From Halomarina salina (GTDB lineage: Archaea; Halobacteriota; Halobacteria; Halobacteriales; Haloarculaceae): a stretch of DNA of 64,000 nucleotides. The notes beneath the pieces were generated by a model. It worked only from the letters and a program-made list of their open reading frames with translations, was not told the DNA's origin and did no database searches. Of this stretch, positions 6,819-38,141 are shown in pieces. How positions within the stretch are numbered: the stretch's first letter is position 1; each line of letters opens with the position of its first letter. The stretch spans positions 124,001 to 188,000 of the forward strand of contig NZ_JALLGW010000002.1 in NCBI RefSeq assembly GCF_023074835.1. Reading direction: 5' to 3'. A program made the position numbers and the translations under genes.

Positions 6819-6963
6819 AGATAACACGCGTTCCAGTTCGTGATAATCGTACCGACAGCGTCCGTTCCGAGAGACCACCGCGTCGCGGACGCTCACCGTC
6901 TCCCGTCGGGTACGGGCCGTATAGGTGCCACGTAATAATAGGCTGGCGTCCGGTGGCAGACGT

Positions 6964-7323
6964 ATGGGAATCGACGTACCGGAGTCGTGGGACCCGGACG
7001 ATCTCTCGGCGGACGAGGCGCTCGACCTCATGTCCCGGCCTCGCCGCCGGAACGTCGTCTACGCACTGCTCGAAGCGGACGACGAGACGCTCACCCGTGA
7101 CGAACTCGTGAACATCCTCGCGGCGGGTCGACGTGAGAAGGCTCCCGACGACGTCGAGGACCGCGTGTTGCGCACTATCGCCGAGTCCCTGGACCACAAC
7201 CACCTCCCGAAACTGGACGAGGTGGACGTCGTCGACTACGACCGCGAGTCGAACCACGTCGAACTCGGGTCGGCCGCCGAGGACGTGGCGCCGCTCCTCC
7301 GGTTCGTCCCCGAGGACGAGTGA
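6964..7323 (+). CDS. DUF7344-type winged-helix regulator (soluble)
   Basis: 119 residues from the ATG at 6964, which removes a non-conserved upstream extension. The domain is nearly the whole protein: LMSRPRRRNVVYALLEADDETLTRDELVNILA, then RVLRTIAESLDHNHLPKLDEVDVVDYDRESNHVEL, matching the HxHLPxLxxxxVVDYD core. It is probably a DNA-binding regulator or a partner of one. Divergent from the SDR at 6818 and convergent with the lipoprotein at 7387. Confidence 0.87.
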   Translation: MGIDVPESWDPDDLSADEALDLMSRPRRRNVVYALLEADDETLTRDELVNILAAGRREKAPDDVEDRVLRTIAESLDHNHLPKLDEVDVVDYDRESNHVELGSAAEDVAPLLRFVPEDE

Positions 7324-7386
7324 CCGCTCGCTGGGAGAACGGAGTCGGCCGCCAGGACGAGTGTCACGGGGTCGATTCGTGGACGC

Positions 7387-8136: not shown

Positions 8137-8228
8137 CGTCTCTCGATAGGTGTCTCCGGGGATAACGACGCCGGAGCATCAAAACCCGGTTTGGTCCTTC
8201 ACGGGACCGGTCGGCGCCGAGACGGAGT

Positions 8229-8399
8229 TCAGCGCTCGGCGACCGGCCGACTCGCCTCCGCGACGTACGTCTCGTGGCCGACGCTGTCCCTGTGGCCCGC
8301 GGCCTCGACGTGGGCGATGAACGACGTCGTCCAGCAGGACGACCGGAATCCACACTCCCGACACCGTGCGCGGAACCCACCGTTGCTCGTACCTGGCAT
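8229..8399 (-). CDS. small zinc-finger-like protein (56 aa)
   Basis: From the ATG at 8399 the frame encodes 56 residues with CRECGFRSSCW followed about 10 residues later by a His (FIAHVEAAGH). This gives a C-x2-C ... H-x5-H pattern resembling the many one-finger proteins of haloarchaea. Too short for firm assignment. The codon bias and the conserved-looking finger support it as a real gene. It lies upstream of the lipoprotein gene on the same strand. Confidence 0.55.
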   Translation of the reverse strand: MPGTSNGGFRARCRECGFRSSCWTTSFIAHVEAAGHRDSVGHETYVAEASRPVAER

Positions 8400-11059: not shown

Positions 11060-12091
11060 ATGACGTGTTATGTCGTCGCCGAGGCGGGGGTCAACCACGA
11101 CGGCGACGTGAGTCAGGCGGAGCGACTCGTCGACGCCGCCGTCGCGGCGGGCGCGGACGCCGTGAAGTTCCAGACGTTCGTCGCGGACAGACTGGCCACC
11201 CCCGACGCCCCCAAGGCACCGTACCAGGAGGAGACGACCGGCGAGCAGTCCCAGTACGAGATGCTCCGCTCGCTCGAACTCCCGCGGTCGGCCCACGAGC
11301 GACTGCAGTCGTACTGTCGGGACCAGGGCATAGAGTTCCTCTCGACGCCGTTCGACGTCGAGAGCGCGACGCTGCTGGACGACCTGGACGTCCCACGGGT
11401 GAAACTCGGGTCGGGGGAACTCGACAACCATCCGCTCCTGCGGCACGTCGCACGGTTCGGGCGGCCGATGGTCGTCTCGACGGGGATGGGGACGATGGGA
11501 GAGGTCCACGACGCACTGGCCGCCATCCGGAACGCGAACCCCGACGTACCCGTGACGTTCCTCCACTGTACGACCGCCTACCCCGCCGCGCTGGACGAGG
11601 TGAACCTCCGGGCGATGGTGACGATGGCCGACGAACTCCCGACGCCGGTGGGCTACTCCGACCACACCACCCGAGTCGAGGTGCCCGCGCTGGCCGTCGC
11701 GGCGGGGGCGACGGTCGTCGAGAAGCACTTCACGCTCGACCGGACGCTCCCCGGCCCCGACCACCGCGCCTCGCTCGAACCCGACGAACTCGCGGCCGCG
11801 GTGTCGCTCGTCCGCGACGCCGAGACGGCCCTCGGGAGTCCCGAGAAGCGACCGACCGGGACAGAGCGCGAGAACCGGCCGGTCGTCCGCAAGAGCCTCC
11901 ACGCCGCCACGGACGTCGCTGCTGGCGAGCGGTTCACCGCCGACAACGTCTCCGTCACGCGTCCGGCCGACGGACTCCCGCCACGCACGTACGACGCCGT
12001 CCTCGGGGCGACGGCCAGCGTCGCACTCGACGCGGGGGCCGCCATCACCGATGCCGCCGTCGGGGAGTGGGACGGGGGTGAGCGCGGCTGA
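11060..12091 (+). CDS. neuB: N-acetylneuraminate/legionaminate-type synthase
   Basis: 343 residues. NeuB-family enzymes condense phosphoenolpyruvate with a six-carbon amino sugar (ManNAc or a di-N-acyl-dideoxy sugar) to give a nine-carbon nonulosonic acid. Visible motifs: EAGVNHDG at 8-15, KFQTF 36-40, KLGSGE 115-120, STGMGTMGEV 140-149, GYSDHT 198-203 and EKHFTLDRTLPGPDH 221-235, the last including the metal-binding His. The C-terminal 60 residues form an antifreeze/SAF-like domain (VVRKSLHAATDVAAGE). It is first in a plus-strand run with a transferase, ABC exporter, PIG-L deacetylase and neuC. Neu, Leg and Pse substrates cannot be separated from the sequence alone. Confidence 0.96.
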   Translation: MTCYVVAEAGVNHDGDVSQAERLVDAAVAAGADAVKFQTFVADRLATPDAPKAPYQEETTGEQSQYEMLRSLELPRSAHERLQSYCRDQGIEFLSTPFDVESATLLDDLDVPRVKLGSGELDNHPLLRHVARFGRPMVVSTGMGTMGEVHDALAAIRNANPDVPVTFLHCTTAYPAALDEVNLRAMVTMADELPTPVGYSDHTTRVEVPALAVAAGATVVEKHFTLDRTLPGPDHRASLEPDELAAAVSLVRDAETALGSPEKRPTGTERENRPVVRKSLHAATDVAAGERFTADNVSVTRPADGLPPRTYDAVLGATASVALDAGAAITDAAVGEWDGGERG

Positions 12092-15432: not shown

Positions 15433-16143
15433 ATGGACAGCGATACCCACACAGGAGGAGCGAAACAGAGCGGAGACGACACCGTCCTCTGTATCGGTGC
15501 ACACCCGGACGACGAGGTGCTCGGGGCGGGCGGGACGCTCGCGGCACACGCCGCGCAGGGCGACGAGGTGCACGTCCTCGTCGTCACGGAGGGCTCGACC
15601 GCGCAGTACGACGACCCGTCGATGGTCGAGCAGAAACGCGAGGAGGCGCGGGCCTGCGCGGACCGCCTCGGGGTCGGAGAGGTCCACTTCGGCGATCTAC
15701 CGGACATGCGCCTCGACGACGTGCCCCACGTCGAGGTGAACGCCGTCGTCGAGTCCGTCGTCGAGCGCGTCGAACCCACGGTCGTCTACACGCACGCCAG
15801 ACAGGAGGTGAACCGCGACCACCGCGCCGTCTACGACTCGACGGTCGTCGCCACCAGACCGGGCAGCGGCGTCGAACGGGTCCTCGCCTACGAGACGCCC
15901 TCCTCGACGGACTGGGTCGGTGGCGGGGCCGACCAGTTCGAACCGACGCTGTTCGTCGACGTCACCGACCACCTCGACGCAAAGGTGGCCGCCTTCGCGG
16001 AGTACGAGTCCGAGACGCGGGCGTTCCCGCACCCGCGGTCCGAGGAGAGCCTCCGCGCTCGCGCGAGGACGCGCGGTGCGGCCGCGGGCGTCGCCGCTGC
16101 GGAGGCGTTCTGTCTCGTCAGGGAGGTGCGCGAGACGCCGTGA
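15433..16143 (+). CDS. PIG-L/LmbE-family N-deacetylase
   Basis: 236 residues. Zinc-dependent de-N-acetylase family, with the metal motif HPDDEVLGAGGTLA near residue 24 and the second metal His within HARQEVNRDHRAVYD. Known members deacetylate GlcNAc-phosphatidylinositol, GlcNAc-Ins and related sugars. It starts 5 bases after the ABC exporter and its stop overlaps the neuC start (GTGA), so it is in the same operon. It may remove an N-acetyl group so that another acyl group (for example formyl) can be added. Confidence 0.92.
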   Translation: MDSDTHTGGAKQSGDDTVLCIGAHPDDEVLGAGGTLAAHAAQGDEVHVLVVTEGSTAQYDDPSMVEQKREEARACADRLGVGEVHFGDLPDMRLDDVPHVEVNAVVESVVERVEPTVVYTHARQEVNRDHRAVYDSTVVATRPGSGVERVLAYETPSSTDWVGGGADQFEPTLFVDVTDHLDAKVAAFAEYESETRAFPHPRSEESLRARARTRGAAAGVAAAEAFCLVREVRETP

Positions 16144-17321
16144 GCGAGTCGAGCGAATCGAGCGAGTCGGGCGAGTCGAGACGCGTCGTCGTCGTCACCG
16201 GGACGCGCGCGGAGTACGGGCTGCTCTCGTCGTCGATGCGGGCCATCGAGGACCGCGACGACCTGACGCTCGACGTGGTCGCGACGGGGATGCACCTCTC
16301 GCCGCAGTACGGCCACACCGTCGACGACATCCGGGCCGACGGGTTCGCTATCGCCCGCGAGGTCCACTCGCTCGTCGACGGCGACACGGGGACGGCGATG
16401 GCGAAGTCCCTCGGCGTCTGCGTCGCGGGGATGGCCGACGCGCTGTCGAGCCTCGACCCGGACGTCGTCCTCGTGCTCGGCGACCGGGGCGAGGCGTTCG
16501 CCGCGGGCGTCGCCGCCGCCCACGCGAACGTCCCCGTCGCGCACGTCCACGGCGGCGACTCGATGGCGGGAGCCATCGTCGACGACAGCATCCGCCACGC
16601 GCTGACGAAGTTCGCCCACCTCCACTTCCCCGTCACCGACCGCTCGGCCGAGCGCATCCGCCGACTCGGCGAAGAGCCGTGGCGAATCACGACCGTCGGC
16701 GCACCCGGTCTGGACGCCGTCCTCGCGGGGGAGTACGACGACTCGACGACCGTCCGCGACCGGTACGACCTGCCCGACGACCGGTCGCTGGCGCTCGTCG
16801 TCCAGCACCCGCTCACGTCCGCACCCGAACAGGCGGGCGAGCAGCTGGCCGCGACGCTCGACGCGGTGGGGAATCTCGACGACGTCGACCCGGTCGTCGT
16901 CTACCCGAACGCCGACGCGGGCGGGCGTCGGATGAACGCCGAAATAGAGTCCCGTGAACACCTCAAGGCGTTCCGGAGCCTCCCGCGCGAGGCGTATCTC
17001 GGGCTGATGGCGGCCGCCGACGTGCTGGTCGGCAACTCCTCCAGCGGTGTCATCGAGGCCGCGTCGCTCGACCTGCCGGTGGTCGACGTCGGCCCGCGTC
17101 AGGAGGGCCGCGAGCGCGCCGACCACACGCTCCGGGTCCCACACGACCGCGCGGCGATTCGCGAGGCGGTCGAGCGCTGTCTCACCGACGACGGCTTCCG
17201 CCAGCGGGTCGCCGACTGCGAGAACCCTTACGACCACGGCGGCGCGGGGGCGGCCATCGCCGAGCGACTGGCGACGGTCGACCTGGACGGGCGACTGCTC
17301 CGCAAGCGTCTGACGTACTGA
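16140..17321 (+). CDS. neuC: UDP-N-acetylglucosamine 2-epimerase, hydrolysing (NeuC type)
   Basis: 393 residues. NeuC-type enzymes convert UDP-GlcNAc (or UDP-diNAc-bacillosamine in LegG) to the free ManNAc-type sugar that NeuB uses. Motifs: VTGTRAEYGLL 19-29, LGDRGEAFAAGVAAAHANVPVAHVHGGD in the middle, HPLTSAPEQAGEQL, and GNSSSGVIEAASL in the nucleotide site. The first 13 residues are a Ser-Glu repeat encoded by four 9-base units. The GTG start overlaps the stop of the PIG-L gene. Together with neuB (11060) and neuA (22950) it completes the core route. Confidence 0.94.
   Translation: MSESSESSESGESRRVVVVTGTRAEYGLLSSSMRAIEDRDDLTLDVVATGMHLSPQYGHTVDDIRADGFAIAREVHSLVDGDTGTAMAKSLGVCVAGMADALSSLDPDVVLVLGDRGEAFAAGVAAAHANVPVAHVHGGDSMAGAIVDDSIRHALTKFAHLHFPVTDRSAERIRRLGEEPWRITTVGAPGLDAVLAGEYDDSTTVRDRYDLPDDRSLALVVQHPLTSAPEQAGEQLAATLDAVGNLDDVDPVVVYPNADAGGRRMNAEIESREHLKAFRSLPREAYLGLMAAADVLVGNSSSGVIEAASLDLPVVDVGPRQEGRERADHTLRVPHDRAAIREAVERCLTDDGFRQRVADCENPYDHGGAGAAIAERLATVDLDGRLLRKRLTY
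16143..16178. repeat. four 9-bp tandem repeats at the start of neuC
   Basis: Units of the form GAGCGAGTC, repeated about four times (third and fourth with one-base changes), encode the Ser-Glu-Ser repeats at the N-terminus of neuC. In-frame, so copy-number changes would not abolish translation. Confidence 0.7.
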
Positions 17322-19428: not shown

Positions 19429-20373
19429 ATGCGCGTCGTCTTCGTCACCCACAACGACCTCGGTCTGGCGTGTCTGGAGGAACTGGTCGCCCTCGGTGCG
19501 GACGTTCGCGGTATCTTCACACGCCCACAGCAGCCGAGAATCAGCGACCAGACCGACCTTTCGGCGTTCGCGACGGCCCACGACGTCCCGCTCCACGAGA
19601 CGGACGACGTGAACGCCGAGTCGGTCCGCGAGCGCATCGCGGGGTACGACCCGGACCTGCTGTTCGTCGTCGGGTGGTCGCGCCTCGTCGACCCGGCGGT
19701 GTTCGACCTGGCGACCGTGGCGGCGCTCGGCATGCACCCGGCACCGCTCCCGCGCGGTCGGGGACGCGCACCCATCGCCTGGAGCCTCGTCACGGGTCTC
19801 GACGAGACCGCCCTCTCCTGTTTCCACCTCGTCGCCGAAGCGGACGCGGGGGACCTCGTCGGACAGGTGCCCATCGACATCGCGGTCGAGGACGACGCCG
19901 CTTCGCTGTACGGGAAGGTCGTCGCGGCGGGCCGGGAACTGATTCGGGAGTACTACCCGCGCTTCGAGGCGGGCGAGGTGCCCCGCGACCCACAGGACGA
20001 CGACGCGGCCACCTGGTGGCCGAAGCGCGTTCCACGGCACGGCCTGGTCGACTGGACACGCCCACCGCGCGAGGTGTACGACTGGATTCGCGGGCAGACC
20101 CACCCGTACCCCGGCGCGTTCTCGTCGCTGAACGGTCACGAGGTGCGGTTCTGGGCCGCGAACCCGCCGAGCGGGGCGCGCGCGTTCTGCGAACCGGGCG
20201 AACTGCTGTCCGTCGAAGGCGACGCGCTCCGGGTCGGTACGTGGGAGGGGCGTCTCGACCTGACGCGCGTCGGCGTCGACGGTGAGGAGATACCTGCGAG
20301 TGCGCTCCTCGACTTCGAGTGGGCGTCGCTCGACGACCGGTTCGTGAACGCGCGTGACTACCTCGCGGAGTGA
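19429..20373 (+). CDS. formyltransferase, methionyl-tRNA/ArnA-like sugar N-formyltransferase (long form)
   Basis: 314 residues. The N-terminal Rossmann domain begins MRVVFVTHNDLGLACLEELV. The 10-formyl-tetrahydrofolate loop reads GMHPAPLPRGRGRAPIAW, where the usual Asn-x-His has become Gly-x-His while the His and RG are kept; the catalytic Asp is in EADAGDLVGQ. A C-terminal FMT-like domain is recognisable (VDWTRPPREVYDWIRGQTHP). Haloarchaea do not formylate initiator tRNA, so a sugar substrate is more likely. The genes flanking it belong to nonulosonic acid metabolism. It is convergent with the shorter formyltransferase at 20410. Confidence 0.88.
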   Translation: MRVVFVTHNDLGLACLEELVALGADVRGIFTRPQQPRISDQTDLSAFATAHDVPLHETDDVNAESVRERIAGYDPDLLFVVGWSRLVDPAVFDLATVAALGMHPAPLPRGRGRAPIAWSLVTGLDETALSCFHLVAEADAGDLVGQVPIDIAVEDDAASLYGKVVAAGRELIREYYPRFEAGEVPRDPQDDDAATWWPKRVPRHGLVDWTRPPREVYDWIRGQTHPYPGAFSSLNGHEVRFWAANPPSGARAFCEPGELLSVEGDALRVGTWEGRLDLTRVGVDGEEIPASALLDFEWASLDDRFVNARDYLAE

Positions 20374-20409: not shown

Positions 20410-21171
20410 TCAGTACGACGAGAGTCGCCCGAGGTCCTCCGAGTCAGCATCGTCCTCGTGGGTGAGCGAGACCTCGACGTAGTACGTCTCGCCGTCGACG
20501 TCGACGTGGGCGTTGTCGAACGGCGGGAAGGTCAGGGCGCGCAGGCGGTCGAGCAGGTCGCGGACCGGCAGTTCCTCGTCGGGGTCGAGTTCGCAGAGGT
20601 CGACGAACTCGCGTTTGACGTGCGTCGTCGCGAGCGCGTCGTCCTGCTCGCGGACCTCGACGGCCCCCTCCTCGACGCTCGGCCACGTCTCGACGAACAG
20701 GTCGTACGCGGCGCGTTCGAGGCGCTCGTAGAGGTCCTTTCCGGTGTCGTCGAACCGCGTCTCCACCTCGCGGGTGGCGACGATGGGGCCAGTGTCGACG
20801 CCGTCGTCCATGTAGTGCAGGGTCACCCCGGCTGGCAGGCCCTCGACGATGCTCCAGACGTTCGGGTTGTAGCCGCGCGCGTACGGGAGCAGTCCGGGGT
20901 GGAGGTTGAGACAGCCACGGTCGGGAACCGCCAGTACCTCCGGCGGGACGACGTGGGTGAACCCGCAGGCGACGACGAACTCCGGGTCGAGGCGCTCGAC
21001 GAGCGACAGCTGGTCGGCCTCGGTCAGCATCGCCAGCACGTCCACCGAGTCGCGGTCACAGAGCCAGTCGTACACCTCCAGCCCGACGTTGTTCGCGCCG
21101 AGGAAGACGACCGTCCGGCGGCCGGCCCGTTCGACCGACGTGGCGTCCGCGGTGAGGACGTCGTCGCTCAT
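20410..21171 (-). CDS. sugar N-formyltransferase, short WlaRD/FdtF-like form
   Basis: 253 residues. The catalytic triad is intact: N89, H91 (LNLHPGLLPYARGYNP) and D126 in MDDGVDTGPIV. The C-terminus has the short beta hairpin ending LRALTFPPFDNAHVDVDGE, like dTDP-amino-sugar N-formyltransferases, rather than the FMT C-domain. It probably transfers a formyl group from 10-formyl-tetrahydrofolate to an amino sugar or amino-nonulosonate. The ATG at 21171 overlaps the stop of the Gfo/Idh gene (ATGA), so it ends the neuA operon. Confidence 0.9.
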   Translation of the reverse strand: MSDDVLTADATSVERAGRRTVVFLGANNVGLEVYDWLCDRDSVDVLAMLTEADQLSLVERLDPEFVVACGFTHVVPPEVLAVPDRGCLNLHPGLLPYARGYNPNVWSIVEGLPAGVTLHYMDDGVDTGPIVATREVETRFDDTGKDLYERLERAAYDLFVETWPSVEEGAVEVREQDDALATTHVKREFVDLCELDPDEELPVRDLLDRLRALTFPPFDNAHVDVDGETYYVEVSLTHEDDADSEDLGRLSSY

Positions 21172-22145
21172 ATCCCGAGGTCCGCGAGGGCGACCGGTTC
21201 GCCCGTCTCGCGGGCGCGGCGGCCCGCTATCAGGGTGCGCATCACGTCGAGCGTGTCCTCGGGGTCGACCACCGGGTCGCCGGTGTGGACGGTGTGGAGG
21301 AACGCCCAGAGCGTCCGGCGGAACGCGGTGAAGTTGTCCCGGAGTTCGTGCGTCGAGTGACCGCCGTCGCCGTAGAACCCCACGTCGAAGACGAACGGGC
21401 CGTCGCCCAGCGCGTCCACCTCGACGAGCGTCCCGCCGTCGAGTTCGACCGCGAAGGCGTCGTGGGGCACGTCGAACGGCGAGACGCGAACCGGCCGCTG
21501 GTCGAGGACGCCGAAGACGGCGTCCAGCATGTGGACGCCGTAGTGCTCCCAGTCGTTGACGACCGTTCCGCGCGCGACGCGCACCTCGCCGCTCTCGGCT
21601 AGGGTGGCCCGCGGGTCGTCGAGTTCGCGCGCGAACCGCATCCCCGAACAGGAGACGAGCCGTCCCGATTCGAGGTGCGGGCGGAACCGGTCGAGTTCTC
21701 CGGCGTCGAGCGCGAGCGGCTTGTCCACGAAGACGGGCGTCCCGTCCTCCAGGAACGGCAGGGCCATCTCGGCGTGACGCTCGTAATCGTCGCGCAGGAG
21801 CAGGAGGGCGTCCACCTCGCCGTGGAGTTCCTCCAGCGAGTCGACGGGGGTCGGAACGCGCGCCGCGGCACAGAGGCGGTCGGTCTCGGCGCGGTCCTGG
21901 GTCCACGCGTGGGTGACGTGTACGCCCTCGAAGCCGAACTCTGCGGGCGACTTCTCGCGCAGGTAGTCGTGGATGCCGTCCCACTCCGACTCCGCGAACC
22001 CCGCGTCGGAGTAGCCGTTGACGATGGACGCGAACGAGTAGGGGTGGCCGTTGCCGGGCGTCGTGCCGACGACGCCGAGCGAGAGGTCGGCGGCACTCGA
22101 CTCCGCCTCGACCCGGATACCGTCGTCGCGGACGACGCTCACCAT
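21168..22145 (-). CDS. Gfo/Idh/MocA-family oxidoreductase of nonulosonic acid type
   Basis: 325 residues from the ATG at 22145 (a GTG at 22142 would give a GTGA overlap with the SDR stop). The nucleotide-binding segment is atypical, GVVGTTPGNGHPYSFASIVNGYSD, followed by VHVTHAWTQD; this variant is common in flagellin or nonulosonic acid clusters. The lysine region is FVDKPLALDAGELDRF. NAD(P)-dependent oxidation or reduction of a sugar or acid is expected. Part of a tight operon with neuA. Confidence 0.88.
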   Translation of the reverse strand: MVSVVRDDGIRVEAESSAADLSLGVVGTTPGNGHPYSFASIVNGYSDAGFAESEWDGIHDYLREKSPAEFGFEGVHVTHAWTQDRAETDRLCAAARVPTPVDSLEELHGEVDALLLLRDDYERHAEMALPFLEDGTPVFVDKPLALDAGELDRFRPHLESGRLVSCSGMRFARELDDPRATLAESGEVRVARGTVVNDWEHYGVHMLDAVFGVLDQRPVRVSPFDVPHDAFAVELDGGTLVEVDALGDGPFVFDVGFYGDGGHSTHELRDNFTAFRRTLWAFLHTVHTGDPVVDPEDTLDVMRTLIAGRRARETGEPVALADLGI

Positions 22146-22957
22146 ACCGTCCACCCGCCGTCGAGGACGACGTTCTGCCCGGTCATCCACTTGCTCGCGT
22201 CCGAGGCGAGGTAGACGATCAGGCCCTTCAGGTCGGTGTCGTCGCCCATCCGCCCGAGCATGGTTCGCTCCTCGTAGTTCGGGACGAACGTCTCGGTGTA
22301 CCCCTCGACGTCCTCCATCGCCTCGCTGTAGAACCCGCCGGGGCTGATGGCGTTCACCCGGATGCGCTCCTGGTGGAGGTACGACGCCAGCCAGCGCGTG
22401 AACTGGATGAGGCCCGCCTTCGCGGCCCCGTAGGTGGGCGGATTGTTGATGCCCGTGTCGCCGTAGACGCGCTGGTCCGGCGGGACGACGCCGTAGTGGC
22501 TCCCGACGTTGACGATGCTCGGCGCGTCGCTCTCCCGGATTTCCGGCAGCGCGGCCTGCGTCGTGACGAACGCCTGCGTGAGCGTGCCTTCGAGCGTCTC
22601 GGCCCACTCCTCCTTCGTCAACTCCTCGAACGACCGCCCGTAACCAGTCGCGTGGTACGCGTTGTTGACGAGGATGTCGATGCCACCGAAGACGTCCACG
22701 GTGGTCTCGACCAGTTCCTCGACGGAGTCCTCGTCGGTCACGTCGGCGGCCACGGGGAGCGCCTCGCCGTACTGCGAGGAGAGTTCGCGCGCCTTCGCCT
22801 CGCAGTCCTCGTACGTGCGCGAAGTGACGACGACGTTCGCGCCCGCCTCCGCCAGCGCGTCACAGAGCTGCGACCCGAGCTGTCCGGGACCGCCGGTGAC
22901 GACCGCCGTCCGACCCGTCAGGTCGAACAGGTCCCAGACGGTCGGCGGCTCACTCAT
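22139..22957 (-). CDS. SDR dehydrogenase, PtmA-like (nonulosonic acid modification)
   Basis: 272 residues. Cofactor loop TGGPGQLGS; catalytic Ser in VNVGSHYG and YxxxK in TYGAAKAG; ending MTGQNVVLDGGWTVW. The stretch VVPPDQRVYGDTGINNPPTY and the tail are characteristic of PtmA/FlmA-type flagellin-modification dehydrogenases that accompany CMP-nonulosonate synthetases in bacteria. It overlaps neuA by 8 bases, so the products are probably made together. The reaction is unknown; it may reduce or oxidise a nonulosonate carbon. Confidence 0.9.
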   Translation of the reverse strand: MSEPPTVWDLFDLTGRTAVVTGGPGQLGSQLCDALAEAGANVVVTSRTYEDCEAKARELSSQYGEALPVAADVTDEDSVEELVETTVDVFGGIDILVNNAYHATGYGRSFEELTKEEWAETLEGTLTQAFVTTQAALPEIRESDAPSIVNVGSHYGVVPPDQRVYGDTGINNPPTYGAAKAGLIQFTRWLASYLHQERIRVNAISPGGFYSEAMEDVEGYTETFVPNYEERTMLGRMGDDTDLKGLIVYLASDASKWMTGQNVVLDGGWTVW

Positions 22958-23657
22958 GGACGCCCTCCGCGAGCAGTGCCTCGGCGACGGCGAAGTCCAG
23001 TTCGGTGTCGAGGTCGACGCTCCGCTCCCGCGGCAGCAGGACCGCGCCGGGGCGCTCGAACAGCAGCGAACTGCCCGCCTTCGGCAGGGCGTCCCTCTCG
23101 AACGCGTACACCGCGCCGGTCAGTTCGTACGACTCTGGGAGCGACTGTCGGGGCTGCCACGGGTCCGCGCCGGTGAGGAACGGGGTGGGGTCGCCGTCGT
23201 CGTCGAACCGCCACGCCCGGTGGGGGTTGAGTCCCGCCTCGGTGAACGTCGCCACAGAGTCGCAGTCGCTACTGACGAGGCGGTCGAGACACTGCTGGAC
23301 GTCGCCCGGCGTGCGCAGCGGGCAGGTCGGTTCGAGCATCACGACGACGTCGGCCGTCTCGCCCTCGTCTCGCAACTCGCCGAGGACGTGCCTGAGCGCG
23401 TCGGCGACGAGCGCGTCGTCGGTCGCCAGGTCCGCGGGACGCTCGACGACCTCCGCGCCGTGGTCGCGGGCGACGGCCGCGATGCTCGGATCGTCGGTCG
23501 TGACGACCGTCCGGTCTATCTCGGGCGTCGCCTCGGCCGCGTCGATGGGCCACGCGACGAGCGGTCTGTCCCCCAGTCGTCGCAGGTTCTTGTTCGGGAC
23601 CGTCGTGCTCCCCCCGCGTGCCGGGACGACGGCGACGACCCGTCGGTTGTCAATCAT
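22950..23657 (-). CDS. neuA: CMP-nonulosonic acid (acylneuraminate) cytidylyltransferase
   Basis: 235 residues. NeuA-type: activates a nonulosonic acid with CTP. N-terminal pyrophosphorylase loop VVAVVPARGGSTTVPNKNLR, then LVAWPIDAAE, TTDDPSIAAVARDHG, VVMLEPTCPLRTPGDVQQCL and an acidic active-site region with DLDTELDFAVAE. Shorter than the bifunctional NeuA forms. ATG at 23657 follows a 131-base gap, so a promoter for neuA-SDR-Gfo/Idh-formyltransferase is likely there (the region includes AATAGCTGTAGCTC). Confidence 0.95.
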   Translation of the reverse strand: MIDNRRVVAVVPARGGSTTVPNKNLRRLGDRPLVAWPIDAAEATPEIDRTVVTTDDPSIAAVARDHGAEVVERPADLATDDALVADALRHVLGELRDEGETADVVVMLEPTCPLRTPGDVQQCLDRLVSSDCDSVATFTEAGLNPHRAWRFDDDGDPTPFLTGADPWQPRQSLPESYELTGAVYAFERDALPKAGSSLLFERPGAVLLPRERSVDLDTELDFAVAEALLAEGVHE

Positions 23658-23788: not shown

Positions 23789-24613
23789 TCAGCAGATGGT
23801 CCATCCGCCGTCGACCCGGAGGTCGTGGCCGGTGACGTACGCCGAGGCGTCCGACAGGAGGTAGACGACCGCTCCGACGAGGTCCTCGGGGCGGGCCATC
23901 CGACCGAGCGGGGTCCGGCGCTCGTACTCCTCGACGAACGTGGGGTGTTGTTCGTCGAAGACGCCGCCGGGGCTGACGGTGTTGACCCGGACGCCGTCCC
24001 GTCCGAGGTACGACGCCACGTACCGGGTGAGGTTGCGGACGCCGCCCTTGATGGCCGCGTACTCGACGGGACTCGTCATCTCGGTGCCCTCGTAGACGGA
24101 GAAGTCGGGAGCCTGCACGCCGTACGTCGAGCCGAAGTTGACGACGCTCCCGCCGCCCGCCTCGCGCATGACGAGCGACGCGCGGTGCGTGACGAGGAAG
24201 TAGCTGTTCAGGTGCAGGTCGACGTTCTCGCGCCAGTCGGCGTACGTCACGTCCTCGTAGCGCCGCCCGTAGTTCGCGTTGCGCGGGTACGAGCAGTTGA
24301 CCAGACCGTCGAGACCGCCGTGCTCCGCGACGACGGTCTCGAACAGCGACTCGACCGACGCCTCGTCGGTCACGTCCGTCTCGACGAACGCCCCGTCCAC
24401 GTCCTCGGCGACCGCCCGACCGCGTTCCGGGGCCGCGTCGGCGACGACGACGGTGGCACCCTGCTCGGCGATGCCCGCAGAGAGCGCCGTCCCGATGAGT
24501 CCCGCGCCGCCCGCGACGACCACGGTCCGACCGGTCAGGTCGAACAGGCCCCTCTCGTCGGCGTCCGAGTCGCGCGACTCGCGGGATTCGGAGCGCGACG
24601 GCATCTCAGTCAC
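23789..24613 (-). CDS. SDR dehydrogenase, second PtmA-like paralogue
   Basis: 274 residues. A Ser/Arg/Glu/Asp-rich N-terminal tail of about 20 residues precedes the Rossmann core AGGAGLIGTALSAGIAE. Catalytic Ser in VNFGSTYGV, YxxxK in EYAAIKGGV, and the PtmA-type ending VTGHDLRVDGGWTIC. It shares the APDFSVYEGTEMTSP segment with the SDR at 22139 in the same position. The start overlaps the upstream methyltransferase by 8 bases; an ATG 9 bases later is also possible. Confidence 0.9.
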   Translation of the reverse strand: MTEMPSRSESRESRDSDADERGLFDLTGRTVVVAGGAGLIGTALSAGIAEQGATVVVADAAPERGRAVAEDVDGAFVETDVTDEASVESLFETVVAEHGGLDGLVNCSYPRNANYGRRYEDVTYADWRENVDLHLNSYFLVTHRASLVMREAGGGSVVNFGSTYGVQAPDFSVYEGTEMTSPVEYAAIKGGVRNLTRYVASYLGRDGVRVNTVSPGGVFDEQHPTFVEEYERRTPLGRMARPEDLVGAVVYLLSDASAYVTGHDLRVDGGWTIC

Positions 24614-26920: not shown

Positions 26921-28066
26921 ATGGGTGAGACCATTCCACTGTTCCGGATCGACACCGACGAGGAGGACGTAGCGAACGCGACGGCCTCGATTCGCCGGGG
27001 GAGCCACTGGGCGAACGGCCCCTTCGTCGAGGCGTTCGAAGAGCGTATCACCGACTACCTCGGCGTCGACCACGCCGTCGCGGTGAACTCGGGGACCAGT
27101 GCGCTCGTGACGGCCCTCGTCGCCCACGACGTCGGTCCGGGCGACGAGGTGGTCGTCCCCTCGTTCACGTTCATCGCCACCGCGAACGCGGTTCGACTGA
27201 CCGGTGCGACGCCCGTCTTCGCGGATATCGAACCCGACACCTACGGTCTCGACCCTTCCTCCGTGCGCGACTGCGTCGGCCCCGACACCGCCGCCGTCCT
27301 GCCGGTCCACCCCTACGGCGGGGCGTGCCGCATCGAGGAACTCGCCGCGCTGGCCGACGAGGAGGACCTCCTGCTCGTCGAGGACGCCGCAGAGGCGCTC
27401 GGCGCGGACGCGGACGGCGACCTCCTCGGAACCGTCGGCGACTCCGCCGCGCTGAGCTTCTGTCAGAACAAGGTGGCGACGACCGGTGAGGGCGGGGCCG
27501 TCGTCACCGACGACGAGGAGGTGGCGCGACGCGCTCGACTCTACCGGTCGCACGGACGCGCGTCCGATCGCTACTTCGACTCCGCGCGGACCGGCCGGTA
27601 CGTCTCGCTCGGGGCGAACCTGCGGATGGCGGACGTGGTGGCGGCCATCGGCTGCTCCCAGCTGGACCGTATCGAGGAGCTCGTCGCCCGCCGTCGTGAG
27701 GCCGCTACACGACTGAACCGCGGGTTCGAGGGCGTCGAGGGCGTCCGTCCCCACTCGTCGCCGACCGGTCGCCACGTCTACCAGCTGTACACCGTCGAAC
27801 TCCCGCGCGGCGTCGACCGCGAGGCGGTCGTCTCCCGACTGGCCGAGCGCGACATCGCGTCGAAGGTGTACTGGGACCCGCCGGTCCACCGGACGGAGTA
27901 CTACCTCCGCGAGCACGACGACCCGCGGACGCCCTTGCGGGTGACCGAGGACGTGTCGAGTCGCGTCCTCACGCTCCCGATGTTCCCGGGGCTGACCGAA
28001 GCGGAGACCGACCGCATCGTCGCCGCCGTGGACGCCGCGGTCACCGAGCAACGGCGGGTGGCCTGA
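26921..28066 (+). CDS. DegT/DnrJ/EryC1 sugar aminotransferase
   Basis: 381 residues. PLP-dependent transamination of a keto-nucleotide-sugar. Motifs: SGTSALVTALVAHDVGPGDEVVVPSF-type N-domain, VEDAAEALGA, the PLP lysine in SFCQNKVATTGEGGAVV, and HVYQLYTVELPRGVDRE. LegC, PseC and PglE are all of this family. The following CBS-epimerase gene starts 2 bases after its stop, so they are in one operon. Substrate position (C4 or other) cannot be fixed from the sequence. Confidence 0.93.
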   Translation: MGETIPLFRIDTDEEDVANATASIRRGSHWANGPFVEAFEERITDYLGVDHAVAVNSGTSALVTALVAHDVGPGDEVVVPSFTFIATANAVRLTGATPVFADIEPDTYGLDPSSVRDCVGPDTAAVLPVHPYGGACRIEELAALADEEDLLLVEDAAEALGADADGDLLGTVGDSAALSFCQNKVATTGEGGAVVTDDEEVARRARLYRSHGRASDRYFDSARTGRYVSLGANLRMADVVAAIGCSQLDRIEELVARRREAATRLNRGFEGVEGVRPHSSPTGRHVYQLYTVELPRGVDREAVVSRLAERDIASKVYWDPPVHRTEYYLREHDDPRTPLRVTEDVSSRVLTLPMFPGLTEAETDRIVAAVDAAVTEQRRVA

Positions 28067-28068
28067 CG

Positions 28069-29490
28069 ATGGAGGGAACGGCTCGACGCGACGTGCTCGT
28101 CCACCGAGGCACGTCGCTGGAGGAGGCGATGTGCAGCATCGACCGGTCGGGACTCGGACTGCTCGTGGTCGTCGACGACGGCGACCGACTCGTCGGGACG
28201 GTCACGGACGGGGACATCCGCCGGGGCATCCTCGACGGCGTGAGCCTCGACGCACCCGTCGAGCAGGTGACGAACGACGACCCCGTGGCCGTCCGTGACT
28301 CGTGGGACCCAGGCGACGTCGCTCGCCGGTTCAGTCCCGAACGGCTCGAACGCGCTGCCCCGGAACACCGCCGCCTGGTCGTCCCCGTCGTGGACGCGGA
28401 CGGGGGGGTGACGGACGTGCGCTTCCTCACGGAGGGCGGGGAGGGCGTCGGCCCGACGCGCCCCTCGAACGGGAGCGTCGACACGGTGCTCGTCATCGGC
28501 GGTGCCGGGTACGTCGGGTCCGTGCTCTGTGGCCAACTGCTCGAACGGGGCTACACGGTGCGGGTGCTCGACCCGTTGCTGTTCGGCGACGAGAGCATCG
28601 CCGCGTACCGGGACCACGAGCGGTTCACGCTCGTCGAGGGCGACATGCGCTCCATCGAGACGGTGATGACCGCCATCGAGGGCGTCGACGCGGTGGTCCA
28701 CCTCGGTGGACTGGTCGGCGACCCGGCCTCCAGCCTCGACCCCTCGCGGACGCTCGCGCTGAACCTCCACGCCGTGAAACTGGTCGCGGACGTCTGCAAG
28801 TACCACCAGATAAACCGGTTCCTGTTCGCCTCGACGTGTAGCGTCTACGGCCGGAGCGAACACGACGACCTGCTCACCGAGGAGGACCCGCTCAATCCGG
28901 TGTCGCTGTACGCCCGGACGAAGATCGAGTCCGAACGCGCACTGCTGGAGATGAACGGAAACTTCGCGCCGACGGTCCTCCGCATGGCGACGGTGTACGG
29001 CCTCTCGCCGCGGATGCGCTTCGACCTCGTGGTGAACATCCTGAACGCGAAAGCGCGCACGGAGGGCGTCGTCCCCGTCTTCGGCGGCGACCAGTACCGC
29101 CCCAACGTCCACGTCGCGGACGCTGCCCGCGCGTACGTCGACTGTCTCGAAGCGCCCATCGAGGCGGTCGAACACGAGGTGTTCAACGTCGGGTCGAACG
29201 AGCAGAACTACCGCATCGAAGAGGTGGGGCGCATCGTCGCCGACGGCGTCCCCGGCGCGACGCTCGACGTCGACCACAGCAAGGAGGACGACCGGAGCTA
29301 CCGGGTCGACTTCTCGAAGATACGCGACGTGCTCGGCTACGAGACCGAACACACCATCCAGAGCGCCTGCGAGGAGATCGGCAGGGCGTTCGAACGCGGC
29401 GAGTTCGACGACTACACCGACTCGCGCTACAGCAACTACAAGACGGCCGTCGAGGAGTCGGAGGCCGAACCGGAGGCGCACGCCGACTGA
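28069..29490 (+). CDS. fusion of two CBS domains with an NAD-dependent epimerase/reductase
   Basis: 473 residues. Residues 1-125 form a CBS pair (SLEEAMCSIDRSGLGLLVVVDDGDRLVG then TVTDGDIRRGIL and VPVVDADGGVTDVRFLTE). The rest is an extended SDR of the NDP-sugar epimerase type: VIGGAGYVGSVLC, HLGGLVGDPASS, ASTCSVYGRS and the catalytic YARTKIESE (YxxxK). It lacks the Asp-Glu signature of 4,6-dehydratases, so it is more likely an epimerase or reductase. In bacterial legionaminic clusters a CBS pair is fused to a nucleotidyltransferase (PtmE); the fusion here is to an epimerase. Start 2 bases after the aminotransferase. Confidence 0.9.
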   Translation: MEGTARRDVLVHRGTSLEEAMCSIDRSGLGLLVVVDDGDRLVGTVTDGDIRRGILDGVSLDAPVEQVTNDDPVAVRDSWDPGDVARRFSPERLERAAPEHRRLVVPVVDADGGVTDVRFLTEGGEGVGPTRPSNGSVDTVLVIGGAGYVGSVLCGQLLERGYTVRVLDPLLFGDESIAAYRDHERFTLVEGDMRSIETVMTAIEGVDAVVHLGGLVGDPASSLDPSRTLALNLHAVKLVADVCKYHQINRFLFASTCSVYGRSEHDDLLTEEDPLNPVSLYARTKIESERALLEMNGNFAPTVLRMATVYGLSPRMRFDLVVNILNAKARTEGVVPVFGGDQYRPNVHVADAARAYVDCLEAPIEAVEHEVFNVGSNEQNYRIEEVGRIVADGVPGATLDVDHSKEDDRSYRVDFSKIRDVLGYETEHTIQSACEEIGRAFERGEFDDYTDSRYSNYKTAVEESEAEPEAHAD

Positions 29491-30115: not shown

Positions 30116-32839
<2,724 letters not shown>

Positions 32840-34010: not shown

Positions 34011-35369
34011 TCAGTTCGGACCGCGGCCGACGACGTAGCAGTCGTGGCGGTCCGGCAGGTCCACCAGGGCGTCGCGACCGTCGACACACACCAGCGAGTC
34101 GTACGACTCCCAGTCGAGGTCCCCGAACTCGGGGTGGTTCGTGACGAGGACGGCCGCGTCGAGGTCGGTCCGTTCGAGTTCCTCGATGGGCGTCAACGGG
34201 TAGTCCGCGCTCGCCCCGTCGAGCACCGGGTCGACGACGAGGATGCGCGCACCACGCGAACTGAGGTCCTCGACGAGGGGTATCGCCGGGGAAGCGCGCG
34301 TCTCCGCGACTCCCGGCCGGTAGGCGAGACCGAGCACCGCGACCGTCGCGTCCTCGATGGCCGTTCCACGGGCCTGGAGGCCGTCCACGACCGTCTCGGC
34401 GAGGAACCTCGGCATCGAGTCGTTGACGTCCCGCGCCGCCCGTGAGAGCGGCATCTCCCCGCTCACGCGGTCGAAGACGAAGTACGGGTAGTAGGGGATG
34501 CAGTGCCCGCCGACGCCCGCCCCCGGCGTGTGGATGTCGCAGTACGGCTGGGTGTTGGCGACGCTGATGGCCTCGACCACGTCGACGTCCAGGTCGTCGC
34601 GCACCAGCGCCAGTTCGTTCGCGAGCGCGATGTTCACGTCGCGGTAGAGGCCCTCGAACACCTTCACGCACTCCGCGGTCGTCGTGTCGCTGACGCGGAT
34701 GACCTCGTTGTCGACGAGCTCGTCGTAGACGAGCGCCGCCGCACGCGTACTCTCCTCGTCGACGCCGCCGACGACCTTGGGGTACGACCCCCGGATGTCG
34801 CGCAAGGCGCGCCCGCTGGCAGTGCGCTCGGGGCAGAACGCGACCCCGAACTCGTCGGGGTCGAGTCCGCTCGCCGCCGCGAGCGTCGGTTCGACGAGGT
34901 CCCGGCACGTCCCCGGCGGGACCGTCGACTCGACGACGAAGAGGTCCCCCGGCGAGAGCCCGTGAGCCACGCTCTCGACGACGGCTTCGAGCGCCGCGAG
35001 GTCCGGGCGCCGCTCTTCGGTCAGCGTCGTCGGGACGATGGCGACGTGGAGTCTCGCGGCCTCGGCGGCCTCGGACGGGTCGTTGACCGCCTGGAGACTG
35101 CCGTCGGCGGTCACCACCGAGACGAGGTCGGCGAGGCCGGGTTCGCCCGTGACGTGCGTCCCGCCGGCGTTGACGGTCTCGACGACCTGTTCGTCGATGT
35201 CGACGCCCGTCACGTTCCCGGTCAGTTCGGCGTAGACGGCGGCGAGCGGGAGTCCCATCTTCCCGAGACCGTAGACGGCGACCGGGACGCGACCGCTCGT
35301 CAGCGCTCGACGCTGTCGGTCCGCGGGAGCGTCGGTCCCGTAGAGGCCGACCACCTCACTGGACCTCAT
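34011..35369 (-). CDS. nucleotide-sugar 6-dehydrogenase (UDP-GlcNAc/UDP-ManNAc dehydrogenase type)
   Basis: 452 residues from the ATG at 35369, which overlaps the upstream stop (ATGA). UDP-glucose/GDP-mannose dehydrogenase family: cofactor loop YGLGKMGLPLAAVYAE, VVESTVPPGT, PERTASGRALRDIRG, the helix ECVKVFEGLYRDVNIALANELALV, and the catalytic Cys in GVGGHCIPYYPYFVF. In this operon it probably oxidises UDP-GlcNAc to UDP-GlcNAc-uronate (WbpA step), although WecC-type UDP-ManNAc dehydrogenase is an alternative. Confidence 0.9.
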   Translation of the reverse strand: MRSSEVVGLYGTDAPADRQRRALTSGRVPVAVYGLGKMGLPLAAVYAELTGNVTGVDIDEQVVETVNAGGTHVTGEPGLADLVSVVTADGSLQAVNDPSEAAEAARLHVAIVPTTLTEERRPDLAALEAVVESVAHGLSPGDLFVVESTVPPGTCRDLVEPTLAAASGLDPDEFGVAFCPERTASGRALRDIRGSYPKVVGGVDEESTRAAALVYDELVDNEVIRVSDTTTAECVKVFEGLYRDVNIALANELALVRDDLDVDVVEAISVANTQPYCDIHTPGAGVGGHCIPYYPYFVFDRVSGEMPLSRAARDVNDSMPRFLAETVVDGLQARGTAIEDATVAVLGLAYRPGVAETRASPAIPLVEDLSSRGARILVVDPVLDGASADYPLTPIEELERTDLDAAVLVTNHPEFGDLDWESYDSLVCVDGRDALVDLPDRHDCYVVGRGPN

Positions 35370-36340
35370 CCCGACACCTCCTCGGCGAGCGCTTCGACCA
35401 GCGCCGCCCGCTCGACGCGCTGGGCGAGTTCGACCGCCCGGAGACCGTCGGTCCCGTCGACGAGCGGTAGAGTTCCGGCCGCGACGGTCTCGACGAACGA
35501 CTCCAGTTCGCGTCGGAGTGGGTCGGCCTGCTGGACGCTGGGCCGCTCGACGACGCCGTCGCACTGGTAGAGACGGTGGCCGTTCATGCTCTCCTGCAGG
35601 CCCGAGGAGGTCCGGTGGACCTCGACGGACTGGTCGATGCAGTCGGCGAGCAGACAGCCCGACTCCGTGACCACCTCGATGGTCCGCTCCTCGCGCTGGG
35701 TGACGCGGCTGGCGGTCATGTCGGCGACGACGCCGTCCTCGAACCGCAGCGCAGCGGTCGCGTGCTGTCCGTTGGCCGTCGAGACGCTCGTCAGGTCGTC
35801 GAGCGGCGCGTCGACCATTGAGAGCACGATGTCGATGTCGTGGATCATCAGGTCGAGCGCGACGCTGTCGGTGAGCTGTCGGTCGACACCCGGCCCGACC
35901 CGGCGCGTGCTGAACGCGATGACGTCGAGGTGCGAGGCGATGTCGGCGAGCGTCTGGACGGCGGGGTTGAACCGCTCGACGTGACCGACCTGCAGCGTCA
36001 GCCCCGTCGCCTCGCTCCGTTCGACGAGCGCCCGGCCGCGGTCGAGGTCGTCGACGAACGGTTTCTCGACGAGGACGTGGACGCCGGCGTCGAAGCAGTC
36101 GTCGATGAGGTCGGCGTGGTGCTGGGTCGGGACGGCTATCGAGACGGCGTCGACGCTGTCGAGCAGGCCCTCGACGGACCGGGCCTCCGTGTCGAACTCG
36201 CGTGCGGTCTGGACGGCGCGCTTCTGGTCGCGGTCCGCGACGCCGACGAGGTCGACGTTCGGCAGTTCACTGTACTGTCGGGCGTGGTTCCACCCCATGT
36301 AACCGACGCCGATGACGCCGGTTCGAGTGGTCTCGGTCAT
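35366..36340 (-). CDS. wbpB: Gfo/Idh/MocA oxidoreductase, WbpB/WlbA-like
   Basis: 324 residues. NAD site GVIGVGYMGWNHARQYSELP, then EKPFVDDLDRGRAL with the catalytic Lys, and DSVALDLMIHDIDIVLSM. Homologues oxidise UDP-GlcNAc-uronate at C3 to give the keto sugar for transamination. The order dehydrogenase, oxidoreductase, aminotransferase and acetyltransferase matches the WbpA/B/E/D set. Overlaps both neighbours by 4 bases. Confidence 0.85.
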   Translation of the reverse strand: MTETTRTGVIGVGYMGWNHARQYSELPNVDLVGVADRDQKRAVQTAREFDTEARSVEGLLDSVDAVSIAVPTQHHADLIDDCFDAGVHVLVEKPFVDDLDRGRALVERSEATGLTLQVGHVERFNPAVQTLADIASHLDVIAFSTRRVGPGVDRQLTDSVALDLMIHDIDIVLSMVDAPLDDLTSVSTANGQHATAALRFEDGVVADMTASRVTQREERTIEVVTESGCLLADCIDQSVEVHRTSSGLQESMNGHRLYQCDGVVERPSVQQADPLRRELESFVETVAAGTLPLVDGTDGLRAVELAQRVERAALVEALAEEVSG

Positions 36341-37425
36341 TGTTGGTGGGTCTCGTAGTCGAGTACTGCGGTCGCGATGCGGTCGACGTCCGCGTCCGAC
36401 AGTCCGGGGTGGACCGGGAGCGAGAGGACGTGGTCCGCGAGGTGCTCCGTGATGGGAGCGCTGTGGTCGACGTGGTGGTACGCTGGCTGCTCGTGGATGG
36501 GCGTCGGGTAGTACACCGCCGAGTCGACGCCCGCCTCCGCGAGGTGGTCGGCGAGGCCTGTCCGGTCGTCCGACCGGACCGTGTACTGGTGGTAGGCGTG
36601 GTCGAACCCCGGCGGGGTGGACGGCGTGAGGATCGAGCTATCGGCGAGCGCCTCGTCGAGGCGCGCCGCGTTCGCCCGGCGGATGTCCACCAGCGTCGGG
36701 AGGCGGTCGAGCTGGACGCGGCCGATAGCGGCCGCGAGACTCGTCATCCGGAAGTTGTGGCCGACCTCGACGTGCTCGTACCCCTCGGACGACCGGCCGT
36801 GGTTGACGTACCGGGCGGCTCGGTCCGCCACGGTCTGGCGGTCGGTGACGACCATGCCGCCCTCGCCCGTGGTCATGTTCTTCGTCGGGTAGAACGAGAA
36901 ACAGGCGACGTCGCCGAACGACCCGACGGGGTCGCCGTCGTAGCGTGCGCCGTGCGCCTGTGCGGCGTCCTCGACGAGGGGGACGTCGTACTCGTCGGCG
37001 AGTCGGCGGAGCGGCCCCACGTCGCTCGGCAGGCCGTAGAGGTGGACCGTGAGGATGGCGTCGACGGATGGTCCCGTCTCCAGCCGGTGTTCGACGGCCG
37101 TCGGGTCGAGGTTGTACGTCTCCGGGTCGACGTCGGCGAACACCGGCGTCGCACCGACCAGCCGAATCGCGTTGGCGCTGGCGACGAACGAGAACGGCGT
37201 CGTCAGGACGTAGTCGCCCGGCCCGATGCCGAGCGCGTGGAGGGCGGTGTGGAGCGCGGTCGTCCCGTTCGACGTGGCGACGCCGTGTTCGACGCCACAG
37301 AACTCGCTGAACTCCTCCTCGAACGTCCGGACCTCGGGGCCGTCGGCGAGGCGGCCCGACTCCAGGACGTCCCTGACGCGGGCGACCTCCTCCGGCCCGA
37401 CCGACGGGTCTGCGATGTCGATCAT
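36337..37425 (-). CDS. wbpE: DegT/DnrJ/EryC1 aminotransferase, WbpE/WlbC-like
   Basis: 362 residues. PLP-type: TSNGTTALHTALHALGIGPGDYV, VEDAAQAHGARYDG, the Schiff-base Lys in FYPTKNMTTGEGGMVVT, and YHQYTVRSDDRTG. In the WbpE role it would aminate the 3-keto group of the uronic acid. ATG at 37425; a 4-base overlap with the acetyltransferase gene's stop. Confidence 0.87.
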   Translation of the reverse strand: MIDIADPSVGPEEVARVRDVLESGRLADGPEVRTFEEEFSEFCGVEHGVATSNGTTALHTALHALGIGPGDYVLTTPFSFVASANAIRLVGATPVFADVDPETYNLDPTAVEHRLETGPSVDAILTVHLYGLPSDVGPLRRLADEYDVPLVEDAAQAHGARYDGDPVGSFGDVACFSFYPTKNMTTGEGGMVVTDRQTVADRAARYVNHGRSSEGYEHVEVGHNFRMTSLAAAIGRVQLDRLPTLVDIRRANAARLDEALADSSILTPSTPPGFDHAYHQYTVRSDDRTGLADHLAEAGVDSAVYYPTPIHEQPAYHHVDHSAPITEHLADHVLSLPVHPGLSDADVDRIATAVLDYETHQQ

Positions 37426-38141
37426 CCGAGCCTGTTCTCCGTTCCGAACCCGTCGGGGAGTGGGCGGACCTCGCCGGGGGCACCGACGACGAGCGACCCG
37501 GGCGGCACGTCGCGGGTGACGACGGCACCGGCGGCGACGAACGCTCCCTCCCCGACGGTGATACCCGGCAGGACGGTCGCGTTGGCGCCGATGGAGACGT
37601 CGTCTTCCAGCGTCGGCCCGACGAGTTCGACCTCCTCCCTGATGGGGTACGGGTCGTTCGTGAACACCGCACCGGGACCGACGAACACCCGGTCGCCGAG
37701 CGTGGAGTTCCGCGGGATGTAGACGCCCGTCTGGAGGCTGACGTTCGAGCCGACCGTCGAGTCGCCGTCGACGACCGCGTTCGTCCCGACGAGCACGCCG
37801 TCGCCGATGTCTGTCTCCTCCCGGACGAGCGCGTTGTGACCGGTCGTGAAGTCGTCACCGGCCGCCACGTCGGTGTAAATCACGCTCCCGCTCCGGACGG
37901 TCGCGCCGTCCCCGAGTCGGGCGGGGTCCGTCCAGCCGTCGTACGGATGGCCGACGGTCGCCGATGCTGCTATCGTACACCCGCGGCCGATGACGCGTTT
38001 CGTCAGGTGGTCATCACAGGATCCGAGCCAGTTCGCTTCCGCCCGGTCGTCGTGGCTCGACTGCTCCGCGGCCGCATCGTCGTGTCGGTTCTCACTCATG
38101 GTTGGTCTCATCCCCAGACTCGCGGAGATGTTCGGATGCAT
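37422..38141 (-). CDS. wbpD: left-handed beta-helix N-acetyltransferase, WbpD/WlbB-like
   Basis: 239 residues. Hexapeptide repeats from about residue 50 on (IGRGCTIAASATVG, LGDGATVRSGSVIY, IGDGVLVGTNAVV, VGSNVSLQTGVYI, VFVGPGAVFTND), including DVSIGANATVLPGITVGEG near the C-terminus. WbpD acetylates the 3-amino group of UDP-GlcNAc3NA. Starts at 38111 and 38099 are also in frame. A TTACAA element about 20 bases before the ATG at 38141 favours the longest form. It is first in the operon. Confidence 0.87.
   Translation of the reverse strand: MHPNISASLGMRPTMSENRHDDAAAEQSSHDDRAEANWLGSCDDHLTKRVIGRGCTIAASATVGHPYDGWTDPARLGDGATVRSGSVIYTDVAAGDDFTTGHNALVREETDIGDGVLVGTNAVVDGDSTVGSNVSLQTGVYIPRNSTLGDRVFVGPGAVFTNDPYPIREEVELVGPTLEDDVSIGANATVLPGITVGEGAFVAAGAVVTRDVPPGSLVVGAPGEVRPLPDGFGTENRLG

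Follow-up and report, generated by a model that had tools for sequence, protein, structure and literature searches.

What reaction does an enzyme catalyse when a CBS pair is joined to an extended SDR domain, and what does the CBS pair contribute? The question is raised by a gene of Halomarina salina that lies within an analysed stretch of 64,000 nucleotides (hereafter, the window). An earlier note, made from the letters alone, had read the gene as a nucleotide-gated epimerase paired with a DegT aminotransferase close to neuBCA genes.

Fusion of a CBS pair with an extended SDR

The joining of the two domains is confirmed by the reading frame, Pfam and AlphaFold2. The gene is a single uninterrupted frame running from ATG to TGA, without internal stops, and its parts are as follows.

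28069..29490 (+): CBS-SDR fusion gene, 473 aa (ORF, Pfam, AlphaFold2)
28087..28431 (+): CBS pair, residues 7-121 (Pfam CBS match over CBS1, model of the isolated domain, PDB CBS matches)
28195..28215 (+): GTVTDGD, residues 43-49, the CBS nucleotide-site motif GxxTxxD, kept in NulO-associated relatives and with its Asp lost in Natrialbaceae
28441..28479 (+): low-confidence linker, residues 125-137 (pLDDT dip in the AlphaFold2 model)
28480..29412 (+): extended SDR domain, Cj1427-like, residues 138-448 (Pfam, phmmer, profile and fold matches)
28498..28518 (+): GGAGYVG, Rossmann NAD motif, residues 144-150 (alignments of relatives)
28831..28851 (+): STCSVYG, residues 255-261, catalytic Ser/Thr position, with Cys-Ser at the dehydratase acid positions (alignment)
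28909..28923 (+): YARTK, residues 281-285, the YxxxK catalytic pair, Y281 and K285 being invariant in alignments
29005..29037 (+): SPRMRFDLVVN, residues 313-323, family signature common to Cj1427 (sequence comparison)

Pfam recognises CBS1 alone (PF00571, residues 7-55, 38 bits versus a cut-off of 24) and the epimerase family (PF01370, residues 140-375, 148 bits). The full-length AlphaFold2 model, built with 38 relatives as input, contains two confident domains (mean pLDDT 88.8, pTM 0.87), with residues 131-133 below 50. Folded alone, residues 1-128 (pLDDT 85) match many CBS pairs in the PDB, with Z up to 13.6, so that the two-repeat CBS pair fold is present in the N-terminal part. The GxxTxxD motif is found in CBS1, and CBS2 has no clear counterpart. 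The hallmarks of extended SDRs, namely, GxxGxxG, the Ser/Thr of STCSVYG and YxxxK, are present and conserved. No NTP-transferase domain of the PtmE type was found in the 473-aa fusion with Pfam and NCBIfam. Searches returned no RNA families and no bacterial promoter or terminator patterns, such patterns being ill-suited to archaea.

A frameshift or assembly error joining two genes, raised in the earlier note as a possible source of the fusion, is ruled out, because relatives in independent assemblies and on a finished RefSeq-annotated plasmid carry the same architecture. The fusion is thus real. Two genomes of the same genus encode it at 77-79% identity, and 12 of the 293 Halobacteriales genomes have it. 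When 84,980 species were scanned, full-length fusions turned up in archaea (Halomarina, Natrialbaceae, Thermoplasmata, Desulfurococcales, several DPANN lineages and Helarchaeota) and in bacteria (Dehalococcoidales, Omnitrophota, Bacteroidetes, Acidobacteria, Gemmatimonadetes, Aminicenantes, Zixibacteria and Patescibacteria), which rejects the idea of an oddity confined to haloarchaea. Our sample comprises about 49 loci from many archaeal and bacterial phyla plus one IMG/VR contig. Within phyla the distribution is sparse: 5 of 237 genomes in the Omnitrophota sample and, at a strict threshold, 6 of 236 in the phylum of the Woesearchaeota locus and 1 of 287 in that of the Yanofskybacteria locus. 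RefSeq labels such genes 'SDR family oxidoreductase' or 'NAD-dependent epimerase/dehydratase', and we found no paper on a CBS-epimerase or CBS-SDR fusion in the open-licence literature. The earlier note did not count the fusion among standard architectures; the genome scan reveals a widespread clade rather than a one-off.

A tree of the SDR part only, with 112 rows, was built by a quick IQ-TREE search with SH-aLRT support values; its midpoint root serves the drawing alone. The CBS label changes 3 times for 49 rows, against a mean of 36.6 when shuffled; the CBS form is essentially one clade in this tree, consistent with one main origin. The exceptions are a long-branch outlier (L268) and an unfused member within the CBS group (L132). 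Haloarchaeal fusions form one clade (17 rows, support 99), in which those of Natrialbaceae are nested (13 rows, support 100). Members of the larger SDR family outside the CBS clade carry either a membrane domain or no added domain, and the membrane-domain form requires 2 label changes. These membrane-domain relatives, exemplified by proteins of Herpetosiphon (L086) and Meiothermus (L098), have the SDR family and the DegT partner in common with the fusion and differ from it in that an N-terminal hydrophobic domain replaces the CBS pair and NeuB neighbours are absent.

Several other architectures were encountered. In loci L077-L131 (Chloroflexi, Planctomycetes, Meiothermus and others), members of this SDR family, again with a DegT partner, have several predicted membrane helices in an N-terminal domain; in the Herpetosiphon protein Pfam recognises the SDR part only. 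A Zixibacteria MAG (L096:4230-6032) encodes a 600-aa chain combining predicted membrane helices, a CBS pair and an SDR. The IMG/VR contig, classed as viral (IMGVR_UViG_3300030616_000506, L135, 144,545 bp), encodes at 163-8345 NeuC-like, PIG-L, formyltransferase, PseA-like, DegT, CBS-SDR and Polysacc_synt_2 proteins, with NeuB elsewhere in the same record.

Chemistry of the SDR and its DegT partner

The best match to the SDR domain is Cj1427, the GDP-D-glycero-D-manno-heptose C4-dehydrogenase of Campylobacter jejuni (PDB 6vo6/6vo8), by phmmer (5.6e-45), by profile (261.6 bits versus 166.5 for the next match) and by fold (Foldseek, as well as VIA-align with Z 39.3 and an rmsd of 1.6 over 301 residues), at an identity of only ~30%. 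Both proteins have the SPRMR-DL-VN signature and lack the dehydratase acids. By contrast, Cj1427 has no CBS pair and belongs to a heptose capsule pathway with epimerases and reductases, not with DegT and NeuBCA. Cj1427 oxidises C4 of GDP-heptose, was purified with tightly bound NADH and was run with alpha-ketoglutarate (PMC10680097). The next-best solved relative of the SDR domain is a UDP-GlcNAc C4-epimerase (6wjb/6wj9, Z ~36).

The acid residues of dehydratases have a catalytic role established from RmlB, in which the motif is TDE. LegB, the NDP-GlcNAc 4,6-dehydratase (TIGR04180), is likewise an extended SDR and occupies the same slot beside aminotransferase, acetyltransferase, NeuC, NeuB and NeuA; unlike LegB, the fusion has a CBS pair and no catalytic acid. 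Residues C257, S258, V259, Y260 and G261 are invariant in 38 fusions, placing Cys-Ser after the Ser/Thr, whereas a near-genuine LegB in the same alignment has STSEVFG. LegB membership of the SDR is rejected on these residues and on the score (76 bits versus a cut-off of 475). The GalE model of UDP-glucose 4-epimerases (TIGR01179) also scores well below its cut-off (121.7 versus 262.3 bits). Since Cj1427 is nearest, the dehydratase acids are absent and the LegB and GalE scores are far too low, the most likely reaction is an oxidation at C4 that may or may not be reversed. With ~30% identity to Cj1427 and a structurally close UDP-GlcNAc C4-epimerase, the SDR could also be a reversible epimerase.

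Immediately upstream, on the same strand, lies the partner gene.

26921..28066 (+): DegT-type aminotransferase (PF01041, 374 bits), ending 2 nt upstream of the CBS-SDR gene

The pairing that the earlier note had seen here is confirmed and is near-constant in relatives. DegT is found within 8 kb at 44 of 49 CBS loci, 34 of 45 membrane-domain loci and 14 of 20 unfused loci; at 33, 30 and 12 loci, respectively, it shares the strand of the SDR gene and is no more than 300 bp away. Natural fusions of the two enzymes without CBS occur in both orders, SDR-DegT (L271:3355-5529 and L280:6587-8767) and DegT-SDR (L277:5623-7806). That DegT receives its keto substrate from the SDR is indicated most strongly by this adjacency and by the fusions in both orders. 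Glutamate-dependent DegT enzymes release alpha-ketoglutarate, which would, we infer, close the redox loop of the SDR.

These observations bear on the proposal of the earlier note that the SDR is an epimerase. In that reading, the CBS pair gates an SDR that epimerises an NDP-HexNAc at C4 or reduces it, and DegT acts on another substrate. The protein is indeed an extended SDR with an intact S/T-Y-K set, and a C4-epimerase is its second-best relative. However, Cj1427 scores clearly above epimerases in the profile comparison, and the near-constant DegT adjacency and the DegT-SDR fusions point to a keto intermediate passed to DegT, which makes the epimerase quite improbable. With Cj1427 nearest and the C4-epimerase second, formation of a 4-keto sugar for use by DegT is a better fit than simple epimerisation.

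Nonulosonic acid loci and a candidate pathway

The following genes elsewhere in the window are relevant to nonulosonic acid (NulO) synthesis.

11060..12091 (+): NeuB-type NulO synthase (TIGR03569, 433 bits, above the cut-off of 399.65)
15433..16143 (+): PIG-L type deacetylase (PF02585, 106 bits)
16140..17321 (+): NeuC-type UDP-GlcNAc 2-epimerase (TIGR03568, 393 bits, above the cut-off of 235.9)
19429..20373 (+): second formyltransferase (PF00551 and PF02911)
20410..21180 (-): N-formyltransferase with an amino-sugar N-formyltransferase C-terminal domain (PF00551 and PF18216; start inferred from the neighbouring gene)
22950..23657 (-): NeuA-like CMP-NulO synthetase (above the PF02348 cut-off; best NCBIfam match PseF, 126 bits versus 205.7)
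23789..24613 (-): classical SDR, PtmA-like (NF050062 FlagModPtmA, 170 bits, below the cut-off of 350)

NeuB, NeuC and a NeuA-like gene are thus all present, as the earlier note had it, but they lie at distances of 4-16 kb and do not form part of the two-gene unit of DegT and CBS-SDR. Either of the two formyltransferases could provide the acylation step in the window, and the product of 20410..21180 possibly acylates the new amino group; Halorubrum is known to have a formylated legionaminic acid (PMC6137143).

Three further observations concern the window. A 470-aa protein without a Pfam match at E 1e-4 is encoded between NeuB and an ABC exporter-like gene (12100-13512, +). Directly past the CBS-SDR gene, a P-type heavy-metal ATPase-like gene (30116-32839, +) appears, from its ORF, to be unrelated to the sugar genes. 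A second sugar operon (34011-38141, -) includes nucleotide-sugar dehydrogenase-like, Gfo/Idh-like, DegT and hexapeptide acetyltransferase genes, DegT being identified by Pfam and the others read from ORFs.

Conserved neighbours, a check proposed in the earlier note, do exist: besides the near-constant DegT, the NulO association recurs across phyla. NeuB lies within 8 kb at 18 of 49 CBS loci, versus 0 of 45 membrane-domain and 3 of 20 unfused loci (3 of 65 non-CBS loci; Fisher p 1.4e-5, uncorrected for relatedness). The order NeuB-NeuC-hexapeptide acetyltransferase-DegT-CBS-SDR is shared by loci of Thermoplasmata (L057), Dehalococcoidales (L064) and Yanofskybacteria (L101), and closely similar orders occur in other loci. 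Two of the acetyltransferases, those of L064 and L074, score above the NeuD/PglB/VioB cut-off. Judged from gene order and sequence matches, this recurrent arrangement is the layout of a legionaminic acid pathway with the CBS-SDR in the place of LegB. A dehydratase search with the LegB and PseB models recovered no LegB over cut-off in any of the 18 CBS-SDR genomes; the nearest candidate (G311, 471.9 versus 475) is probably a real LegB, and PseB is present in one genome (G312). CBS loci without NulO genes nearby are found in Acidobacteriota, Gemmatimonadota and Natrialbaceae. The Dehalococcoidales MAG also encodes a 584-aa protein in which a NeuB domain is joined to a CTP-transferase (L064:1321-3072, a NeuB-NeuA fusion), with a separate NeuB adjoining.

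The same layout could be read as that of an ordinary legionaminic acid pathway, in which the SDR is a divergent 4,6-dehydratase replacing LegB and the CBS pair is regulatory. Its position beside a LegC-like DegT, LegH/NeuD-like acetyltransferases, NeuC and NeuB and the lack of LegB over cut-off in these genomes agree with such a role; moreover, haloarchaeal legionaminic acid is known, and Halorubrum sp. PV6 has a 'LegB' assigned by BLAST (PMC6137143). Against it stand the low LegB score, the invariant Cys-Ser at the acid positions and the non-dehydrating C4-dehydrogenase as nearest relative, and we consider this reading unlikely.

We infer instead that the fusion is a CBS-regulated member of the Cj1427 kind of SDR recruited into NulO loci. 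To the proposal that such an NAD-dependent C4 oxidoreductase and DegT together replace LegB, with the CBS pair tuning the step by nucleotide binding, we assign about an even chance. The substrate of the SDR would be an NDP-sugar, most likely NDP-GlcNAc, to be oxidised at C4 with no loss of water, and the adjoining DegT would aminate the 4-keto product with glutamate. The released alpha-ketoglutarate would re-oxidise the SDR-bound NADH, as in Cj1427. Acylation by an acetyltransferase or formyltransferase, followed by NeuC, NeuB and NeuA, would then yield a CMP-nonulosonic acid. The CBS pair would bind a nucleotide, possibly the end product CMP-NulO, and tune this early step. With the DegT and CBS-SDR unit in place of the LegB dehydratase, the product is predicted to be a 7-amino(acyl) NulO in which the 9-hydroxyl is kept.

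Relatives and decay of the CBS pair

Five CBS parts were scanned against NCBIfam, and each matches best the CBS pair of KpsF/GutQ arabinose-5-phosphate isomerases. Among the closest CBS pairs in the PDB are 4o9k, itself such a pair, 3k2v and 3fna; the ligand of 4o9k is probably CMP-Kdo. KpsF/GutQ/KdsD also act early in a CMP-ulosonate (Kdo) pathway, but their catalytic domain is a SIS isomerase and their CBS pair is C-terminal. This closest relationship makes feedback sensing of CMP-NulO a reasonable candidate role. PtmE, the CBS-nucleotidyltransferase of the GDP-legionaminic route, is likewise an enzyme acting early in sugar-nucleotide synthesis that carries a CBS pair, but it is a nucleotidyltransferase and not an SDR. 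A related case is the 679-aa chain of L303:814-2850, in which a CBS pair stands between an HddC-like guanylyltransferase and an HddA-like heptose kinase.

The motif GxxTDGDIRR is kept in NulO-associated copies across distant archaeal and bacterial phyla. Within haloarchaea, GxxTxxD is intact in the Halomarina fusion and decayed in Natrialbaceae, where the Asp is replaced and CBS2 is partly deleted while the SDR stays conserved. The earlier note would have taken its idea as refuted if the fusion proved common outside sugar loci. This is partly so: in Natrialbaceae the DegT and CBS-SDR pair lies outside NulO loci, with the CBS part decayed. NeuB is absent from 12 of 13 Natrialbaceae genomes (8 of 8 and 4 of 5; the exception is L062). 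In Halobacteriales as a whole NeuB is encoded by 49 of 293 genomes, including all 4 haloarchaeal genomes with an intact CBS motif. Among 40 genomes compared, 23 have both NeuB and the CBS acid, 13 neither, 3 the acid without NeuB and 1 NeuB without the acid. The informative independent transitions number only two, and both go the expected way; the correlation is therefore one good natural experiment and no statistical proof.

Could the CBS pair be structural or vestigial, with the SDR working as proposed and no nucleotide sensing? Compared with the SDR part, the CBS part has diverged at roughly double the rate, and faster still in Natrialbaceae (distance ratio 3.1 versus 2.15), which, with the Natrialbaceae losses and the motif-less CBS2, would fit such a role. 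Retention of GxxTDGDIRR across distant phyla in NulO-associated copies argues against it and renders it improbable. Nucleotide gating by the CBS pair stays a putative function.

The earlier interpretation is thereby upheld for the CBS pair on an extended SDR, the DegT pairing and the NulO locus, and revised for the simple epimerase and the one-off fusion. The broadest form of the hypothesis is tentative, and we regard it as possible though doubtful: an undescribed archaeal and bacterial NulO route, in which a CBS-gated C4-dehydrogenase and DegT replace LegB to give 7-amino, 9-hydroxyl NulOs and the CBS pair senses CMP-NulO, as the KdsD-type CBS pair may sense CMP-Kdo. If true, it would predict a sugar structure that can be checked by mass spectrometry and offer a first handle on the regulation of early steps in CMP-ulosonate pathways. 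Natrialbaceae, with DegT and SDR kept, the CBS site decayed and NeuB mostly absent, are a natural comparison for what the CBS pair senses. The CBS-SDR and DegT may constitute a self-regulated alternative step in the synthesis of sialic-acid-like sugars, in which a widespread, unannotated class of enzymes would gain its place.
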